Source: Pithys albifrons albifrons
Taxonomy: Eukaryota; Chordata; Aves; Passeriformes; Thamnophilidae
Direction: 5' to 3'
Assembly (NCBI RefSeq): GCF_047495875.1
Contig: NC_092497.1
Location: 67,688,992-67,752,991, forward strand
Length of the DNA stretch: 64,000 bases
Shown: one piece after another, positions 19,209 through 55,525 of the stretch
How the letters are laid out: the number at the start of each line of letters is the position of its first letter
Numbering within the stretch: the stretch's first letter is position 1
Program-made: the position numbers and the translations under genes
The notes under the pieces: generated by a model
Database searches by the model: none
What the model was told of the DNA's origin: nothing
Seen by the model: only the letters and a program-made list of their open reading frames with translations

Positions 19209-19410
19209 TAATGTATGCATGTATGGCCAGACTTCACGAACAAAGATTTTGGGAAGGGCTCTCCCCACGTGGGTGTGCCCTTCCAGCCTGCGTAGTGGAT
19301 GTTTTAGGTAAGGCACAGTGTGCACAGAACTGGCCCCACCCTTTAACTCCTAAGGTCCATTTGCGGTGGCCAAGCAAGCTTGAACAGTGACAGCGAAGTC
19401 CTCGGGACTG

Positions 19411-19492
19411 TCACAGCACCTGGTACTAACCAGAGCTGACCCTGCTGAGCATCCGAGGTCTGACAGCATCAGATGGCAGGGAGGCATTTAAC
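19411..19492 (-). pseudogene. 5S rRNA-derived segment lacking Box C
   Basis: Minus-strand sequence keeps the 5S-like CTCAGCAGGGTCAGCTCTGG and GGTTAGTAC stretches and the GGTGCTGT end. It lacks the 24 bases that hold the GGATGGGAGACC Box C in the sister copies. It is part of the SINE, not a ribosomal gene. Confidence 0.8.
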
Positions 19493-19504
19493 TGCCCAGG
19501 GGAT

Positions 19505-19581
19505 GGTCCGCACTGAGGCTTAAACTCAGGTTCTTAGGATTCAGAGTCCAGAGTGCTCTCCTTTATGCCACGGGACTACCC
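19505..19581 (-). pseudogene. tRNA-Gln(CTG)-like module
   Basis: On the minus strand this reads as a degenerate tRNA. The A-box region contains GTGGCATAAAGG. The anticodon arm has AGCACTCTGGA, then CTG as the anticodon, then AATCC. The T arm has CCTGAGTTTAAGCCTCAG, in which the B-box GGTTCRANNCC has decayed to GAGTTTAAGCC. The anticodon-arm block closely matches vertebrate tRNA-Gln from memory. The acceptor arms no longer pair well, so this is not a functional tRNA. It forms the 5' end of the surrounding retroposon. Confidence 0.72.
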
Positions 19582-19588
19582 TAATGTA

Positions 19589-20243: not shown

Positions 20244-20847
20244 TGTCCTAGTTACAGCAGCCAGGACCAATTTATCACTGTATGGGTGTAACCAAAGATG
20301 GATATTCTACACGCTCTGTCTCATTTCTCATGAACTCTTTCTAATGAATTATTGGCAGCAGCTGCCCAGGGCACACCTGACACCTCAGGCTACAAGCTGG
20401 GTGTTAGAGAACCCTGGGAGACAGGGAATGTTTTCTGCTGTTCATACCAATGTATGATAACTTCCCTCTGGAGAGGCATTAGCACCTCCATACCCAGGCC
20501 ATCAAAAGTTCCAAAAATATCCCAAGACTCACAGAGTCAAATCACCCATTGTGAAAGCCCCTTCCCTGGGGGAGGTACTGGACTTTCCCACCTGAATGTG
20601 AGCATATATAATCTTGTGGTTTGGGAACTTCTGGTACTACCTGTTGGATCCAGAGGAGGACCAGAACCTCAACAGGACTGTGACTGCCGCTTTCAACCAG
20701 ACTGTGACCATCACCCGCACCAAGAGGTTTTCCTTTCCTTTTACTTTTTATTCAGAGGCACCACGTGGGGCTCAGCACAGAGGCTAATAAACAGTAAGGA
20801 TTCTCAAAACTCATCTGTTTCTGCTTCCATTACTCAACCAGACAACA
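20244..20847 (+). mobile_element. solo LTR of an endogenous retrovirus, copy 1
   Basis: It begins TGTCCTAGTTACAGC and ends near CA at 20847. It contains a TATATAATC promoter-like box near 20608 and an AATAAA signal near 20788, the layout of an LTR's U3 and R regions. It is repeated head-to-tail by the next entry, 607 bases downstream start to start. It lacks about 130-150 bases of the 3' part present in the second copy. The 168-codon frame within (20352-20858) is incidental. No internal retroviral genes adjoin, so the ERV class cannot be fixed; an ERVL-type is only a guess. Confidence 0.7.
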
Positions 20848-20850
20848 TAA

Positions 20851-21602
20851 TGTCCTAGTTACAGCGGATGGGAGCAGCTTATTACTGCGTGAGCGTAAAC
20901 AAAATTTTGTATTCTACACCCTCTGCATCATTTCTCATGAACTCTTAATAATAGATTGTTGGCAGAAGCTGCCCAGAGCACACCTGACACCTCAGGCTAC
21001 AAGCTGGGTGTTAGAGAACTCTGTGATATACAGTAGTTTTCCTGTCTTTCCACCAGTGACTCAGCCATTATAACTTCCCTCCAGGCAGGCATTAACACCT
21101 TCACACCCAGCCTGATGTGCCATGTCTGCTCATGGGCCACCAAAGATTCAAAAAATATCTCATGATGCACTGAGTAATTCATCCACTTAGAAATTTCTCA
21201 CCCTGGGGGAGGTATTGTGCATTCCCATCTAAACCTGAGCGTATGTAATCTTGGGGTTTGGGAATTTCTGATACCTCTCATCAGATCCAGAGGAGGACCA
21301 GAACCTCAACAGAACTGTGACTGCCACTCTCGACCAGACTGCAACTATCATCCTCAGAAACAAGTTTTCCTTTCCTTTTATTTTGTATTCAGGGTGACCA
21401 GGTGGGGCTCAGCAGAGGCTAATGAATACCATTCTGTTTGTGACCCAAAGAGCTGGGTTATACCTTTGTTTTGTGTGGCTTAAAACCAATTTTTCTCTGT
21501 ATCATTGTATTTATTGTAATCTTTTTAGTAAATTGTGACTCTGACTTATAGTCTCTTTTGAGTTGGGTTTGTTTCTGCTGCCGGTTTACCTTTAGATCAG
21601 CA
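20851..21602 (+). mobile_element. solo LTR of an endogenous retrovirus, copy 2
   Basis: It starts with the same TGTCCTAGTTACAGC as copy 1 and matches it block by block. Shared blocks include CACACCTGACACCTCAGGC, CCTGGGGGAGGTA, a TATGTAATCTTGGGGTTTGGGAA box and CAGAGGAGGACCAGAACCTC. Past AGGCTAAT it has a longer tail with ATTGTATTTATTGTAATC and GACTCTGACTTATAGTC before rejoining copy 1 at GTTTCTGCT. The copies differ at many sites, so they are not a recent duplication. No primer-binding site or gag/pol/env lies between them. Confidence 0.7.
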
Positions 21603-22302
21603 CATATATCTAAAACTGTTGGAAGAAGAAAGCTGGTGATGTTCTTCTGTTTCAAGGGCAAAGGCACAGACATCACCTGAAAAGAGTTCTGCAGCCTGAG
21701 ACAGGAACAGAAGTGCCAGGTTACCCAATCGTTTTCTTATGGTGTGCAGCTTTTTATGGTTTGAGCAAAAAATGTTCATAAAAATGAGAAATTATGAATA
21801 ATGATGCATCCTGGCCAGGTGTATTTCTGCTGACCAGCCACCTCACACAGTGTGTAATGACAACGAAGGCAGATTTTTGCTCACTGTTCGCAATTCAGTG
21901 GAAGGAGAGGATGTCCCTGGCACCAGCTGTGTACCTCTGAGCATATGGGGGTTGAAGTTACAAAAAAATGAACAAACAAAAAAAAAGACCAATTTGCAAG
22001 AAGGCTTTTGGGGAAGTATGTGACCACTCAGCAATATCAGGGGACTATAGAATAGGGAAACACCGTCCTTTGGAAAGAGTAGAGTCTAATTCTGTGCTGC
22101 AGTAGACATGACTCTTTCTGCTGTATCAGTAAGGAGAAAATAGATTTGGCACTCCTCTGCTACTTGTATACCCTGGAGAACTACCCTGGCAGAGACACAT
22201 AATTGGTGTTTTTGTACATTTTTTTGTCCCTCAAAACATATAAGCCAGGCTTTATAAACTTAAGAGCAGTGACTGAATGCTCTGATGAGAAACTGAAAGC
22301 CA
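21603..22302. other. unassigned DNA
   Basis: No gene recognised. Composition is mixed, with a small A-run cluster near 21961-21985. Confidence 0.45.
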
Positions 22303-22442
22303 GTTGAAAAAAACAAAAAAAAAACACTAAAACAAACCAAAGGAAAAAAAAATCAACCAAAAGAAAACAAAACAAAACAAAAATAAACAAACAAACAAAA
22401 AAAAAACACCAAAAAACCCCACAACAAAACAAGGCAAAACAA
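22303..22442 (-). repeat. A/C-rich low-complexity tract (CAAA-type)
   Basis: About 140 bases of A-runs broken by single or double C, mostly AACAAAAC and CAAACAAACAAA units. On the minus strand it is the same T/G-type low-complexity sequence found near 17.4 and 28.6 kb. The open frame over it (22510-22181) is a poly-Phe artefact. Confidence 0.85.
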
Positions 22443-23642
22443 ATGAGGGCTTGGAAAAATGGAAGCTTGGATGTCTTCTGAAACACATTATCCTGTTTAA
22501 AAGGGAACAAAAACCAAGGTCTTGGCCTGGCTTTGAAGTTAAAGGTCAGAAAACTACCTCAGCACATTTAGCTAGTAAAGTTATGGTACCTTCACCTACT
22601 CTGATGTCTGATCCCTGTGGTGATCATCAACATGTCTATTACATCTGGGAGAACAAGAACTTTTGTTCTAAGGTGAATGCAAGCATAAAACTCAAATTTC
22701 ATACTTTTCAAAAGTGAAAGGTTTTTAACCAGCTGTTTCAAGATGATTTGAATTTATAAACCTTTAACATAGAAAGAGTTCATAGCCTTTAAGACACATT
22801 GATGCATACGTATATAATTGTTCACTGTATTACGTTGGCTATTATCGCTTTAGCCAGCCTCCTCTGACATAATAACCTCAGAATAAAGATTCCATTCCTC
22901 TTTTTTCCTCCTCTTTTTTTTTCATGGGCATGACAGACAGATTCAGTCCTGATTTACTGGAAGCTTCCCTTCTGTAATTCATTATTTGTTCTCCTCTAAC
23001 ACAATTATCTTGCATCTTTTAACTCAGTTCAAGGTGTCCTTTTCATTTGCCAATGTCATGTTCCACCTCTAAGTCTCTAATTTTCCCCTGTAAGTCTATT
23101 CTCAGATATTTTAAATTTCCCAGAACGTCAGTACTGTTTTTTTTTCCTGCCTAGCTGTTACGAGTTGGCAATCTTTTTTGTCTTTCTTGGTAAATGCAAG
23201 GAAGGATCACTCTCTTTTTTTTTCTCCTTTCTTCTTTAGTTTCTGTTGAGCATAATATAGGAAAAAAACATGAATCCATTTATATTTGAATCAAACCAGA
23301 TAAAAATAACTGTAAATTCACTAGCTACAAGCAAAATGTGATTGAAATAGCTTTCTATTATTGAAAAAAAAAAAAACAACAACGAGATTTATGCCTAGTG
23401 GATTCATTCACTTAGTTTGCAAAAGAAATGAAACAAATCAACTTGGTAGTCTTCCACCAGCATTTAGCACATCCCTTCTCACATCACAAAAGCATTACAG
23501 TTTGGCACTGTTCTGAATGACTGGCAACTTCTACTCAGGACAGACCAAATAATGAAATGCCAGAGAAAGAAATGCCAAGGGCTTTTCAGGTCAGTGCTTT
23601 GCCAGAACTATACTGGAAAGCTTATTTCACTCTTTGGAAGTG
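22443..23642. other. unassigned DNA with pyrimidine tracts
   Basis: No gene. The segment 22500-22730 has even composition and a nuclear-receptor-like GTTAAAGGTCA near 22539. Pyrimidine-rich stretches lie near 22900-22925 and 23208-23240. Confidence 0.4.
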
Positions 23643-23982
23643 TTATAAGTTGCTTTATCATCATGGCTGGGCTTCGCGAACGAAGATTTGCGAAGGGCTC
23701 TATCCATGTGGGTGTGTCCTTCAAGCCTGCACAGAGGATTATTTTTTTTGGTGAAGCACGCAGTGTGCCCTAAACTGGCCCCACCCTTTAACTCCTAAGG
23801 TTCATCTGCCATGGCTGAGCGAGCTTGGACAGTGACAGTGAAGTCCTCAGGACTAGAACCTCCAGCACCTGGTATTCAGGAGGTCTCCCATCCAAGTACT
23901 AACCAGGGCTGACCCTGCTTAACTTCTGTGATTTGACAGGATCAGGCATCAGGGTGGCATTTAACTGCCTTTTATAAGCTCC
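23643..23982 (-). mobile_element. SINE copy B: 5S rRNA head, RTE-like tail
   Basis: A minus-strand element of about 322 bp (23650-23971). Flanking TTATAAG occurs at 23643-23649 and 23972-23978, and the match extends to 9 of 11 bases, consistent with a target-site duplication. Minus-strand order: GGCAGTTAAATGCC start, 5S-derived segment (23961-23859) with Box C retained, body with CTGTCACTGTCCAAGC and GAGTTAAAGGGTGGGGCCAG, then CCCACATGG, TTCGTTCGCGAAGCCCAGCC and an ATGATGATAA tail. There is no tRNA module. The body and tail match copies A and C. Confidence 0.88.
23859..23961 (-). pseudogene. 5S rRNA-derived segment
   Basis: Minus-strand landmarks are AAGTTAAGCAGGGTCAGCCC, GGTTAGTACTTGG and ATGGGAGACCTCC, which correspond to 5S rRNA's internal promoter region. 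Several substitutions and a short deletion (CTGAATACC where 5S has CTGGGAATACC) exclude a working 5S gene. Confidence 0.85.
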
Positions 23983-24338: not shown

Positions 24339-25674
24339 TACAGAATCTCAGAATGGTTGGGGTTGAAAAGAGCTTCTGGAGAATATCTAGCCCAACTACA
24401 CCTGCTAAAGCAGGTTCACCTAGAACGAGTTTCACAGGATTAAGTCCAGGAAAATGTATCCACAGGAGACTCCACATCTCTGGGCAGCTTGTTTCAGTGC
24501 TTGGTCACCTTCAAAAAAAAAAAAAATCCTCAGATTCAGGTGGTACTTTCTGTGTTTCGGTTTGTGGCCATTGAACCTTGTCCTGTCACTGGGCATCACT
24601 GAAGAGAGTCTGATCCCATCCTCTTGGCACCTGCCCTTAAGATATTTGTACACTTTGATAAGATCCCTGTTCAATCATTTCTTCTTTGGGCTAAACTGGC
24701 CCTGATCCCTCAGGCTTTCCACCTAAGAGAGGTGATGCTTCAGTCCCCTAATCATCTTTGTAGCCCTCCCTTGCACGCTCTCAAGTATGTTCTTGTCATT
24801 CTTGAACTGGAGAGCCCAGAACCAAACACAGTACTCCATGTGAGGACTCACCACGGCTGAGCAGAGGTGCAGGATCACTTCCCTTGACCTGGTTACAATG
24901 CTCTCCCTAATGCACCCCTGGATACTATTCGCTTTCTTGGCCATCAGGACACACTGCTGGCTCATTGACAGCTCTTTGCCCACCAGAACCCCCAGGTCCT
25001 TTTCTGCAGAGCTGCTTTACAGCAGATAAACCGCAGCCTGAAATGGTGCCTGACATTATTCTTCTCCAGGTGCAGGACCCTGCATTTGCCTTTGCTGAAG
25101 TTCATTGGGTTCCTCTCCACCCAACTCTTTAGTCAGCCCAGCTTTCACTGATTGGCAGTAGAGCAGTCTGGGCTATCAGCCTTTCCTCTCAGTTTTGTAT
25201 CATCTCTAAACTTGCAAGAGAGGACACTCTATCCCTTCCTCCAGATAATTTATGAATAAGCTGAACAAGACTGTACCCAATACTGACCCGTGTGGAACAC
25301 TTCCTGCTATGGATACCTAACTAGACTCTGCAGCAACACGTTGAGCTCGGCCCTTCAGCCAGTTCTCAATCCACCTCACTGAGTTATCTAACTGCCCGTT
25401 TCTGGGCTTACCTATGAGTATATTATGGGAGACAGGGTCAAAAATATTGTTGAAGTCAAGGCAGACATCCACTGCCCTTTCCTCATCTCATGAAACAGTC
25501 ATGACATCACAGAAGGCAATCAGATTGGCTGAGAACAATTTCTCCTTAGTGAATTTATGCTGACTACTCTGAGAACTTTGATTTACTCCATAGACCTAAA
25601 AATGGCATGCCACAAGAGTTGTTCCATCATCTTTTCAGGCACAGAGGTAAGGCTGTCTGGCCTGTAGTTTCCTG
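24339..25674 (-). mobile_element. CR1 LINE (outer element), 3' part
   Basis: A minus-strand CR1 with its 3' end at 24339. On the minus strand, 24983-24723 encodes a decayed RT connection region: KKANSIQGCIRESIVTRSREV, then VVSPHMEYCVWFWALQFKND, then LESVQGRATKMIRGLKH. An A-run at about 24513-24526 interrupts the 3' region. The element is interrupted at TTCCTG (25669-25674) by a plus-strand CR1 and resumes after the second TTCCTG at 26200-26205. The combined outer element is about 1.45 kb and still 5'-truncated. Confidence 0.93.
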
Positions 25675-26199
25675 CACTGGTGCGACCTCACTTTGAGTGC
25701 TACATGAGTTTTTGGGTACCACAATATTAGAAAGATATTGAGCTCTTAGAGAGTGTTCAAAGGAGGGCAATGAAGATGGTGAAGGACCTTGAGGGGAAGC
25801 TGTATGAGGAATGACTGAGGGCACTTGGTCTGTTCAGCCTGGAAAAGATACTGAGAGGAGACCTCATAGCAGTCTAAAACTTTCTCAGCAGAGGAAGAGG
25901 AAGGGCAGGCACTGACCTCTTCTCTGTGGTGACCAGTGATAGAACCCAAGGGAATGACCTGAAGTTGTGTCAGGGAATGTTTAGGTTGGATTAGGAAAAG
26001 TTTTTCAGCCAGAGGGTGGCTGGGCACTGGAAGAGGCTCCCCAGGGCAGTGGTAACAGCACCAAGCCTGACAGAGTTCAAGAAGCCATTAGACAACAGTC
26101 TCAATTGCATGATGTAATTCTTGGGGCTGTTCTGTGCAAGGCCAGGAACTGGACTTTTATGATCCTTGTGGATTCATTCCATCTCAGCATATTCTGTGA
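25675..26199 (+). mobile_element. CR1 LINE nested in another CR1
   Basis: A plus-strand CR1 fragment of about 525 bp, inserted into the minus-strand CR1 and flanked by TTCCTG on both sides. It begins inside ORF2: GGTGCGACCTCACTTTGAGTG corresponds to the VRPHLE region. It continues through the GAGGGTGGCTGGGCACTGGAAGAGGCTCCCC block and ends with a CTCAGCATATTCTGTGA terminus. It belongs to the same CR1 group as the element at 35.4 kb: shared GGGCACTGGAAGAGGCTCC and ACCAAGCCTGACAGAGTT-type blocks. It must be younger than its host element. Confidence 0.92.
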
Positions 26200-26320
26200 T
26201 TCCTGGGTCCTCTTTCTTGCACTGTTTAAAGACTGGAATGATACTGCCTTTCTGTCAGTCCTCAGGCTCCTCCTATTTTCCATGACCTTTCAAAGATGAT
26301 AAAGAGTAGCTCAACAATTC
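26200..26320 (-). mobile_element. CR1 LINE (outer element), continuation
   Basis: The outer CR1 resumes here: TTCCTGGGTCCTC, then CTGGAATGATACTGCC and CAGTCCTCAGGC, then ATGACCTTTCAAAGATGAT. These are the antisense landmarks immediately 5' of the segment lost at 25674. The 5' truncation point is near 26320. Confidence 0.88.
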
Positions 26321-35446: not shown

Positions 35447-36641
35447 AGAGAATCACAGAATATGCCAAGATGGAAGGAACCCACAAGGATCACCAAGTCT
35501 CATTCCTAGCCCTGCAGAGGACCACCCCCAAGAGTCACCATGCACCTGAAACTATCATCCAAACACTTCTTTAACTCTGTCAGGCTTGGCGCTGTGACCA
35601 CTGCTCTGGGGAGCCTCTTCCAGTACCCAGCCACCCTCTGGTTCAAGAATCTTTTTCTAACACCCAGCTTAAGCCTCCCCTAACACACTTTCATGCCATT
35701 TCCTCAGGTATTGTCCCTGGTCACCACAGAGAAGAAGTCAGTGCCTGCCCTTCCTCTTCCTCTCCTAAGAAAGTTGTAGACTGCTATGAAGTCTCCTCTC
35801 AATATCTTCTTCAGACTGAAAAGACCAATTGCCCTCAGCCATTCCTCATACAGCTTCCCCTCAATGTCCTTCACCATCTTCATTGCCCTCCTTTGAACAC
35901 TCTCTAAGAGTTTAATATCTTTCTAATATTGTGGTGCCCAAAATGGCATGCAATATCCAAGGTGAGGCTGCCCCAGTGCAGAGCAGAGTGGGACAATCCC
36001 CTCCCTCGACCAGCTGGTGATGCTGTGCCTGCTGCCCCCAGGGCATGGTTGGCCCTCCTGGCTGCCACGACACTGCTGACTTATATCCTACTTGCCACAG
36101 GTCCCTTTCCATGGCACTGCTCTCCAGCATCTCATTCCCCAGTCTGTCCGTAGGTCTGGGGTTGCCCCATCCCATGTTCTGAATCTGGCACTTTCCCTCA
36201 TTGCACTTCATATGGTTGGTGATTGCCCAGTCCTCTAATTTGTCAAGATCTCTCTGCAGGGCCTCCCTGCCTTCAAGGGAGTCAAAAGCTCCTTCCAGTT
36301 CAGTGTCAACTGCAAATTTGCTCAGTATCCCTTTCAGTCCTGTGTCCAAATCATTTATGAAGATGGTGAAGAGCACAGGGCTCAAGATGGAGCCCTGTGA
36401 AACCCCATTAGTGACAAATCTCCAGTCTGATGCTATACCTTTCACTGTTACTCTCTGTGCTCTGCCCATGAGTCAATTGCTCACCTACTGCATGACGTGT
36501 TTATCCAGCTGTGTGTTGAACATTTTGCCCAAAAGGATTCTGTGAAAGACAATATAGAAAGCTTTACTGAAATCCATAAAGATGACATCAACTGGCTTTT
36601 CATGATCAACTAGGTGCATTACCCTGCTTGTTGCAAAGAGG
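35447..36641 (-). mobile_element. CR1 LINE with decayed reverse transcriptase
   Basis: The best-preserved CR1 in the window, about 1.2 kb, minus strand, 3' end at 35447. A 185-codon frame (36469-35912) holds RT palm motifs: GVSQGSILSPVLF at residues 22-34, INDLD at 38-42, and LSKFAVDTEL at 49-58. The last is the catalytic FADDT block with the first aspartate of the pair changed to valine, so the enzyme would be inactive even if expressed. The EALQRDLDKLEDWA block follows. Downstream frames shift, and the 3' end carries the GAGGCTCCCCAGAGCAG and CAAGCCTGACAGAGTT blocks. It is truncated 5' of the palm at about 36641. Same subgroup as 25675-26199. Confidence 0.95.
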
Positions 36642-36898: not shown

Positions 36899-37235
36899 AT
36901 AAATCATATTTAAGTACAGCCATGCCACCCTGATGCCCAATCTCGTCTGATCTCTGCAGCTAAGCAGGGTCAGGCTCAGTTCTTACTTGGATGGGAGACC
37001 TCCTGGGAATACTGGGTGCTGTAGGTTCTAGTCCTGGGGACTTTGCTGTCACCATCCAAGCTCACTCGGCCGTGGCAGATGAATCTTAGGAGTTAAAGGG
37101 TGGGCCAATTCTGTGCATGCTGTGCCTCACATAAAAAATCCACTGTGCAGGCTTGAAGGATACACCCACACGGGTAGAGCCTTTCCCAAAATCTTCATTC
37201 ACAAAACCTAGCTATGAATGATGATAAATCATATT
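36899..37235 (+). mobile_element. SINE copy A: 5S rRNA head, RTE-like tail, 12-bp TSD
   Basis: The element (36911-37223, 313 bp) is flanked by a perfect 12-bp direct repeat, ATAAATCATATT, at 36899-36910 and 37224-37235. This is direct evidence of retroposition. Order: 5S-derived head (36914-37027), body with CTGTCACCATCCAAGC and GAGTTAAAGGGTGGGCCA, then CACCCACACGGGTAGAG, TTCATTCACAAAACCTAGCT and an ATGAATGATG tail. It lacks the tRNA module of copy C. The ATG-repeat tail and preceding motif differ from CR1's ATTCTATR ends and recall RTE-clade LINE ends, so the mobilising LINE was probably an RTE type. Best-preserved copy. Confidence 0.93.
36914..37027 (+). pseudogene. 5S rRNA-derived SINE head
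   Basis: It follows 5S rRNA over nearly its whole length. Landmarks are CCATGCCACCCTGATGCCC, AATCTCGTCTGATCTC, AGCTAAGCAGGGTCAGG (Box A/intermediate region) and GGATGGGAGACCTCCTGG (Box C, 36989-37006), ending ACTGGGTGCTGTAGG. Substitutions and the absence of an immediate T-run terminator argue against a ribosomal gene. The internal promoter is nearly intact in sequence, so Pol III initiation is conceivable. Confidence 0.92.
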
Positions 37236-50401: not shown

Positions 50402-50771
50402 AATCTCTTCAGCCTGGAGAAGAGGAGACTGAGGGGAGACCTCACTGCAGATACAACTTCCCTGTGAGGGGAAGAGGATGGGCAGGCACTGATCTTTTCT
50501 GTGTTGACAGGACCCAAGGAAATGGCATGAAGCTGTATCAGGGGAGGTTGGGTATTAGAAAAAGGTTCTTCACCCAGAGAGTGTTTGGGCACTGGAACAA
50601 ACTCCCCAACACAGTGTTCACAACACAAAGCCTGAAAGAGTTCAAGAAGTATTTGGATCGTACTCTCAGACAAATATTGTGACTCTTCAAGATGGTCCTA
50701 TAGAGGGTTAAGAGCTGGACTTGATGATCCTTGTGGATGCCTTTCAGCTTAGTGTCTTCTTTGATTCTGTA
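50402..50771 (+). mobile_element. CR1 LINE 3' fragment
   Basis: About 370 bp of plus-strand CR1. The 72-codon frame at 50464-50682 keeps a readable C-terminal block: LYQGRLGIRKRFFTQRVFGH followed by WNKLPNTVF, then SLKEFKKYLDRTL. This matches the CR1 'RKxFFTxRVxEHWNRLP...SLEIFKxxLDxxL' end. It ends with GGACTTGATGATCC and TTTGATTCTGTA. Same general CR1 group as the 25.7 and 35.4 kb copies. Confidence 0.93.
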
Positions 50772-54984: not shown

Positions 54985-55525
54985 TACACATACACATACA
55001 TGGCTAGGCTTTGCAAACAAAGGTTTGGAAGGGCACTACCCACACTTGCTGCAAATGTACTGAAGGCTAAAAAGGGCGATGCAGGATAGGCAAATCTGGT
55101 CACAAAATGCACAGCAGAAAGTCTCCTCAGGCAATATTGGCAAGGAATGATTCTTTAGGCCACCTTTCCTAGGCCCCTCTCGATGTGGAGCAAGCAACGC
55201 TCTCCTTAAAAAAGGTTGCTTGGTCATTCAGGATGCTGCCGAACCCGACTGTCATCTCCAGGGTCAGTCTCAAGTGACCAGTGTGCTGAACCGCCTGCAT
55301 GCAGGGCTGGGGCTGTGGCTTCCAGTACTTCTTATCACCTGCTGTTTCAATCCTCACCTGTCGCTACAGAGCTTTACAATGTGGGTGAACCCTTTGAGCC
55401 TGGGCAATGGATTTTCTAGTTGAGGCACAGAGTGTGTAGATCTGGCCCTACCCTTTAATCCTAAGGTTCATCTGCCAGGGCCTAGCAAGCTTGGACGGTG
55501 ACAGTGAATACCTCAGAACATAGGT
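54985..55525 (-). mobile_element. SINE/RTE mosaic locus (copy D), minus-strand part
   Basis: Both ends match copies A-C. At 54999-55043 is the antisense 3' end (CATGGCTAGGCTTTGCAAACAAAGG, then CACTACCCAC). At 55381-55525 is the antisense body (GTGGGTG, then TTGAGGCACAGAGTG, CCTTTAATCCTAAGGTTCATCTGCC and GCTTGGACGGTGACAGTGAA). Between them, 55044-55380 is 337 bases absent from the other copies, joined exactly at the centre of the family's CCCAC/GTGGG palindrome. The 5S head is missing. A weak CATATA repeat at 54979-54984 and 55803-55808 might bound the whole mosaic. Confidence 0.7.
55044..55380 (-). mobile_element. 337-bp extra segment, possible RTE ORF end
   Basis: On the minus strand, the frame at 55227-55036 ends with TFCCAFCDQICLSCIALFSL followed by QYICSKCG. 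The spacing CxxC, then xxxCxSxIxLFS, then C, resembles the zinc-finger-like C-terminus common in RTE-clade LINE proteins (C..C.R.C.SRIGL.SH...C), with several key positions changed. Upstream in another minus-strand frame (55357-55169) is an uninterrupted stretch of 62 codons with balanced amino-acid use but no motif I know. The alternative is an unrelated insertion such as an LTR; no clear target-site duplication is visible. Confidence 0.4.

Follow-up and report, generated by a model that had tools for sequence, protein, structure and literature searches.

A 5S-headed SINE with an AviRTE tail is already on record in birds: GymnSINE, from the antbird lineage, carries a tail made of part of the AviRTE 5'UTR and the full 3'UTR (Suh et al. 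2016, PMC4844689). The consulted part of that source describes transfer of AviRTE between filarial nematodes and birds, and separate births of its SINEs in different bird lineages; in every one of these SINEs the tail combines 5'UTR and 3'UTR pieces, with the 3'UTR (about 40 bp) kept in full (PMC4844689). In the literature searched, the name GymnSINE occurs in this paper alone. ManaSINE1 of manakins and tyrant flycatchers is described there as an AviRTE SINE with a tRNA-Glu head (PMC4844689). TguSINE1 and PittSINE, likewise passerine SINEs, have CR1-derived tails with tRNA-Ile and tRNA-Asp heads, and in PittSINE a head exchange by template switching has been proposed (PMC5729268, in the part consulted). 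A 5S head on the tail of an RTE-clade LINE is also described for Ped-1 of the springhare, but there the partner is BovB and the host a rodent (PMC3747384, in the part consulted). AmnSINE1 and SINE3 (DeuSINEs) share the 5S head as well, but the partial description consulted gives them a CR1-4_DR-type tail.

Here, four related elements, named A to D, were found by BLASTN and nhmmer within a stretch of 64,000 nt (hereafter the window). With high probability, A, B and C represent fossil copies of a 5S-headed SINE that AviRTE mobilised; the family is most likely GymnSINE or one of its close subfamilies. Membership in GymnSINE itself is likely, as judged by anatomy and primer sites compared with the published description: both have a 5S-derived head, a two-part tail that joins a stretch of the AviRTE 5'UTR to the 3'UTR, and a bird genome as host, but the tRNA-Gln-like head of copy C is absent from the GymnSINE description as far as it was consulted (PMC4844689). 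The suspicion in the original prediction that the family may already be described was well placed, as a family of this build has been known in kind since 2016; this locus adds the naming of AviRTE as the partner, a copy (D) that helps to explain the build, and the tRNA-Gln-like head of C.

Extent and retroposition of the elements

A profile of the four copies places B at 23660-23969 (-), A at 36912-37219 (+) and C at 19223-19497 (-) in nhmmer, returns D as two pieces (55377-55520 and 54998-55042, both -), and finds no fifth element above the inclusion threshold within the window. Since A to D themselves went into the profile, their scores are high by construction. With A alone as the query, BLASTN matches B and C and, of D, the larger piece; a B query matches both D pieces. 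Pairwise alignments show that A, B, and C are mutually alignable, the 5S part and body of C being 73% identical to B over 308 columns. The three elements had been predicted to share a 5S head, a body, and a tail, which is the case for A and B; in C the 5S part is damaged, and the first ~75 bases of the copy are tRNA-Gln-like rather than 5S. Coordinates of all features are collected in Table 1.

Divergence from the four-copy consensus spans 4.6-15.2% across the copies, with B the nearest at 4.6% mismatches to a consensus that includes B and gives ties to it. Non-CpG distances between bodies (0.098-0.179 in six copy pairs) would be compatible with an old invasion, and from four copies we draw no date. 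The AviRTE wave that includes suboscines has been dated to >20.2-17.7 million years ago (PMC4844689, in the part consulted).

The perfect 12-bp duplication predicted around A, ATAAATCATATT, is present and identical at all 12 positions, and none of 300 shuffles gave one as long. The predicted 7-bp duplications of B and C are present too, but each is weak alone, since about 10% of shuffles reach the same length; only that of A is strong by itself. D has no useful duplication, its best being 5 bp, a length reached in 280 of 300 shuffles. Relative to the shuffles, these lengths give good support for retroposition of A and make it likely for B and C. The short duplications of B and C, weak as they are alone, would also fit a unit of 5S-pseudogene or segmental-duplication origin that was never retroposed. 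Such an origin is contradicted by the 12-bp duplication of A. In addition, with 500 bp of flank added on each side, the copy-to-copy matches end within 8 bases of the element borders, and the AviRTE 5' and 3' ends are fused in the elements. We regard an origin of this kind as highly improbable.

Two further features of the window are recorded here as observations in their own right: a direct tandem duplication at 20244-20780 and 20851-21417, with a unit of ~610-640 bp and copies ~80% identical, and a low-complexity A-rich stretch with irregular AAAC units at 22300-22456.

Table 1. Positions of the four elements and of their parts within the window
Feature	Positions	Strand	Basis
Copy A, full 5S-headed SINE	36911-37223	+	Matches to the other copies in BLASTN and nhmmer
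Copy B, 5S-headed SINE	23650-23971	-	Rfam 5S score (38.5 bits), primer sites, identity to consensus
Copy C, composite of tRNA-Gln-like head, 5S-like unit, AviRTE body, and tail	19216-19581	-	Alignments, Rfam, tRNA comparison
Copy D, best read as AviRTE-derived, without 5S head	54998-55520	-	nhmmer E 2.5e-46 and 5.9e-10 (profile includes D), BLASTN from B, primer sites
5S rRNA-derived head of A	36912-37027	+	Rfam RF00001
5S-like unit of C	19412-19496	-	Alignment with A and B
tRNA-Gln(CTG)-like head of C, immediately 5' of its 5S unit	19505-19577	-	Rfam tRNA (18.9 bits), tRNA-Gln alignment, box motifs
Body of A, AviRTE 5'UTR fragment	37031-37171	+	int-F and int-R sites, 126-bp predicted product
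Tail of A, putative decayed AviRTE 3'UTR with ATG-rich end	37175-37223	+	Alignment with B, C, and D; starts at the presumed LINE stop codon TAG
Start of the sequence shared with SINE tails in D, GGGTAG	55036-55041	-	Frame 0 reads ...YICSKCG*; the junction in the SINE copies falls here too
5' target-site duplication of A (ATAAATCATATT)	36899-36910		12/12 identical to 37224-37235
3' target-site duplication of A	37224-37235		Match to 36899-36910
5' flanking duplication of B, CTTATAA	23972-23978; second copy 23643-23649		7 bp; 34/300 shuffles as long
Flanking duplication of C, TACATTA	19582-19588 and 19209-19215		7 bp; 31/300 shuffles as long

5S heads, AviRTE body and tail, and the lesson of copy D

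The 5S rRNA model of Rfam (RF00001) scores 63.2 bits (E 6.3e-11) in A and 38.5 bits in B (23857-23972, -; gathering score 38), both past the cut-off, which bears out the predicted 5S-derived heads of these two copies; in copy C, Rfam reports no 5S rRNA. The 5S head of A presumably holds an internal Pol III promoter of type 1. The 5S unit of C, recognised by alignment, is without ~26 bp that are present in A and B, a segment that we take to hold the box-C stretch. Compared with a vertebrate 5S rRNA, A and B have in common a 3-base gap, seen also against the Rfam consensus, and a T for G (GAGACCTCC), which argues for one founder for both. At the start of the 5S unit it is B and C that have GGCAGTTAAATGCC in common, while the start of A is more 5S-like.

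The body and tail can be compared with the AviRTE primers printed by Suh et al., of which AviRTEint-F and int-R amplify 126 bp of conserved AviRTE 5'UTR (PMC4844689, in the part consulted). Exactly four AviRTEint-F sites with at most six mismatches occur in the window, one in each element (one mismatch in B; three each in A, C, and D), and the best int-R sites also fall in A (2), B (3), C (3), and D (4), the next site in the window having five mismatches. As a control, the window was resampled five times with its dinucleotide steps preserved; there the best int-F sites had at least six mismatches and the best int-R sites four to six. The two sites (in A, 37033-37053 with three mismatches and 37140-37158 with two) predict products of 126 bp in A, 133 bp in B, 127 bp in C, and 126 bp in D, against the published 126 bp. 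At the other end, primer full-4R, from the AviRTE 3' end, fits the tail of B with a single mismatch (23657-23675), where the next best site in the window has five and the resampled windows four to six. On the tails of D, A, and C it has 6, 8, and 9 mismatches of 19 when placed ungapped, which taken alone is chance level, and the 3' ends of these copies are tied to AviRTE solely by aligning with that of B. None of the remaining seven AviRTE primers has a site with fewer than four mismatches in the window, as expected if no full AviRTE LINE is present.

Judged by these primer fits and product sizes, the SINE body is AviRTE 5'UTR and the tail is the AviRTE 3' end, the shared 3' piece of B measuring 45 bases from TAG to its end, against ~40 bp for the published 3'UTR. 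The RTE-clade partner named in the original prediction was therefore right and can be specified as AviRTE. The predicted non-CR1 3' end also stands, as the elements end in CCAGCCATGATGA (B) or related forms and not in the CR1-type ATTCTRTG. A terminal hairpin that might be a reverse-transcriptase site (CTTCG-TTCG-CGAAG in B) was found in the minimum-energy fold of D only, one of the four copies, and is absent from the D centroid; the fold z-scores are -2.25 for B, -0.26 for D, -0.73 for C, and -2.59 for A, and on these results we assign the hairpin no such role.

Copy D is the possible fourth copy that had been suspected, and it does exist, but without a 5S head or duplication, and it is better read as a LINE derivative. 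It consists of a 5'UTR piece (55380-55520), ~336 bp that are absent from the SINE copies here, and a 3' piece (54999-55042). The middle part (55046-55379) is probably the end of the AviRTE ORF and ends in a CxxC-type stretch ahead of an in-frame TAG (55036-55038) that would be the LINE stop codon; in Pfam the best match was a zinc finger at E 7.6. D was also considered as a SINE with an insertion, a reading that was rejected because the extra sequence begins exactly at the join of the two SINE tail pieces and frame 0 ends there in CSKCG*. D is thus best read as a deleted AviRTE copy that has lost most of its ORF, with what is probably LINE sequence still lying between the two pieces.

The tRNA-Gln-like head of copy C

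When the ~75 bases that precede the 5S unit of C are aligned with a tRNA-Gln sequence, 54 of the 71 aligned positions agree, including an unbroken stretch of 21 across the anticodon arm; the alignment scores 66, and the best of 500 shuffles 25. Among the four isotypes compared (Gln, Glu, Ile, and Lys), tRNA-Glu (15; shuffle mean 14.2) and tRNA-Ile (13) are at chance level, and tRNA-Lys (28) lies inside its own shuffle range (maximum 32). C therefore shares with ManaSINE1, as described, the bipartite AviRTE tail, but its head fits tRNA-Gln and not the tRNA-Glu of that family, and it also has a 5S unit (PMC4844689, in the part consulted); A and B start with 5S. The Rfam tRNA model gives the head 18.9 bits, below its gathering score of 29, and ARAGORN at normal settings found no tRNA. 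At 80% ARAGORN calls a tRNA-Gln(ctg) in C, a call that is worthless alone because 26 other sites in the window are called as well, and it is the sequence match to tRNA-Gln that carries the claim. The head also contains an A-box-like TGGCATAAAGG and a B-box-like GTTTAAGCC, the B-box match being the looser one. A match of C to PhotoRC-I (19.3 bits; gathering score 45) was taken as chance.

How this head came to stand in front of a 5S SINE can be approached from its borders. The tRNA part ends ~8 bases before GGCAGTTAAATGCC, the start of the 5S unit as found in B, and the 7-bp duplication of C encloses the entire composite, whereas no duplication is found at the inner border between tRNA and 5S (best 6 bp, reached in 89 of 300 shuffles). 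A tRNA head is present in one of the three SINE copies, and elsewhere in the window the C head finds nothing better than E 2.3, as would be expected if C is a one-off that founded no family, a reading that we consider somewhat better than even. Such a one-off could have arisen in two ways. In the first, a template switch led from the 5S SINE RNA to a tRNA-Gln; switching to a tRNA has been proposed for PittSINE in suboscines (PMC5729268, in the part consulted). In the second, the 5S SINE landed beside an older tRNA-Gln pseudogene. The head differs from the tRNA-Gln sequence at 17 of 71 positions and the body from the A/B/D majority at 24 of 181 (Fisher P 0.056), a weak excess that favours a landing and leans slightly against a fresh switch, while the duplication around the whole composite and its absence at the inner boundary speak against a landing, yet 7 bp arise in 31 of 300 shuffles.

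Alternatively, C may belong to an undescribed tripartite subfamily, tRNA-Gln plus 5S plus AviRTE, one that acquired a type 2 (A/B box) promoter ahead of a 5S unit from which the box-C stretch has gone. This would amount to a promoter swap within one family and possibly link the 5S-headed and tRNA-headed AviRTE SINEs of suboscines; we put it forward tentatively, as the less probable origin of C. Among the matches listed in the literature on composite-head SINEs, in sources consulted in part, no 5S/tRNA-Gln bird SINE appears.

Host, proposed mobilisation, and implications

A CR1 reverse-transcriptase remnant at 35915-36472 (-), recognised by Pfam RVT_1, speaks to the host. Its relatives past the threshold number 203, of which 120 were listed; all 102 of these with a species name are birds (18 are nameless), which agrees with the bird genome assumed in the original prediction. 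They comprise 48 entries from Pitangus sulphuratus, 34 from Willisornis vidua, and 20 from other birds, the best match being Zosterops borbonicus; Willisornis is an antbird and Pitangus a tyrant flycatcher. These relatives show a bird origin and are compatible with a suboscine, of which they are no proof because the Pitangus and Willisornis genomes have many such entries. Related CR1-like 3' parts lie at 35449-36472 (-), 25672-26202 (+), and 50452-50768 (+); two of them end in ATTCTGTGATTC and the third in a decayed form of it, and the part at 35449-36472 (-) adjoins the reverse-transcriptase remnant.

The host bears on whether the family is GymnSINE or a different 5S SINE born independently, in parallel, on AviRTE in another bird lineage. 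The latter would fit the more 5S-like start of A next to the GGCAGTTAAATGCC common to B and C, and repeated lineage-specific births of SINEs on AviRTE, with several heads, are described (PMC4844689, in the part consulted). The single founder of A and B, marked by the 3-base gap and GAGACCTCC, does not separate the two, and the presence of the antbird Willisornis among the CR1 relatives counts against a parallel birth, though these relatives show just a bird. We judge a parallel birth to be unlikely and retain GymnSINE or a close subfamily as the preferred identity.

A substantial copy number in the genome is plausible. Three patterns run against viral contigs and two against other genome contigs matched nothing, and blastn against phages gave no further copies, which says little as these are non-bird collections; a protein search with one reading frame of the copies' consensus gave one candidate and no match up to E 10.

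The SINE copies carry a 5S head and an AviRTE body and tail, and A is flanked by its duplication. From this anatomy and from established LINE/SINE pairs, we propose that Pol III would transcribe the SINE from the internal 5S promoter in its head, and that the RNA, whose body is the AviRTE 5'UTR piece joined straight to the 3'UTR, would be taken as a template by the AviRTE endonuclease/reverse transcriptase because it ends in the AviRTE 3'UTR. Copying at the nicked target (target-primed reverse transcription) would then leave duplicated target sites.

Copy D suggests the site at which the bipartite SINE tail was joined. Further copies of AviRTE SINEs with clean target-site duplications would be useful markers. 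If copy C proves to be one of a family, it would show a change of promoter type with the LINE tail kept, which can be tested via junction counts in suboscine genomes.
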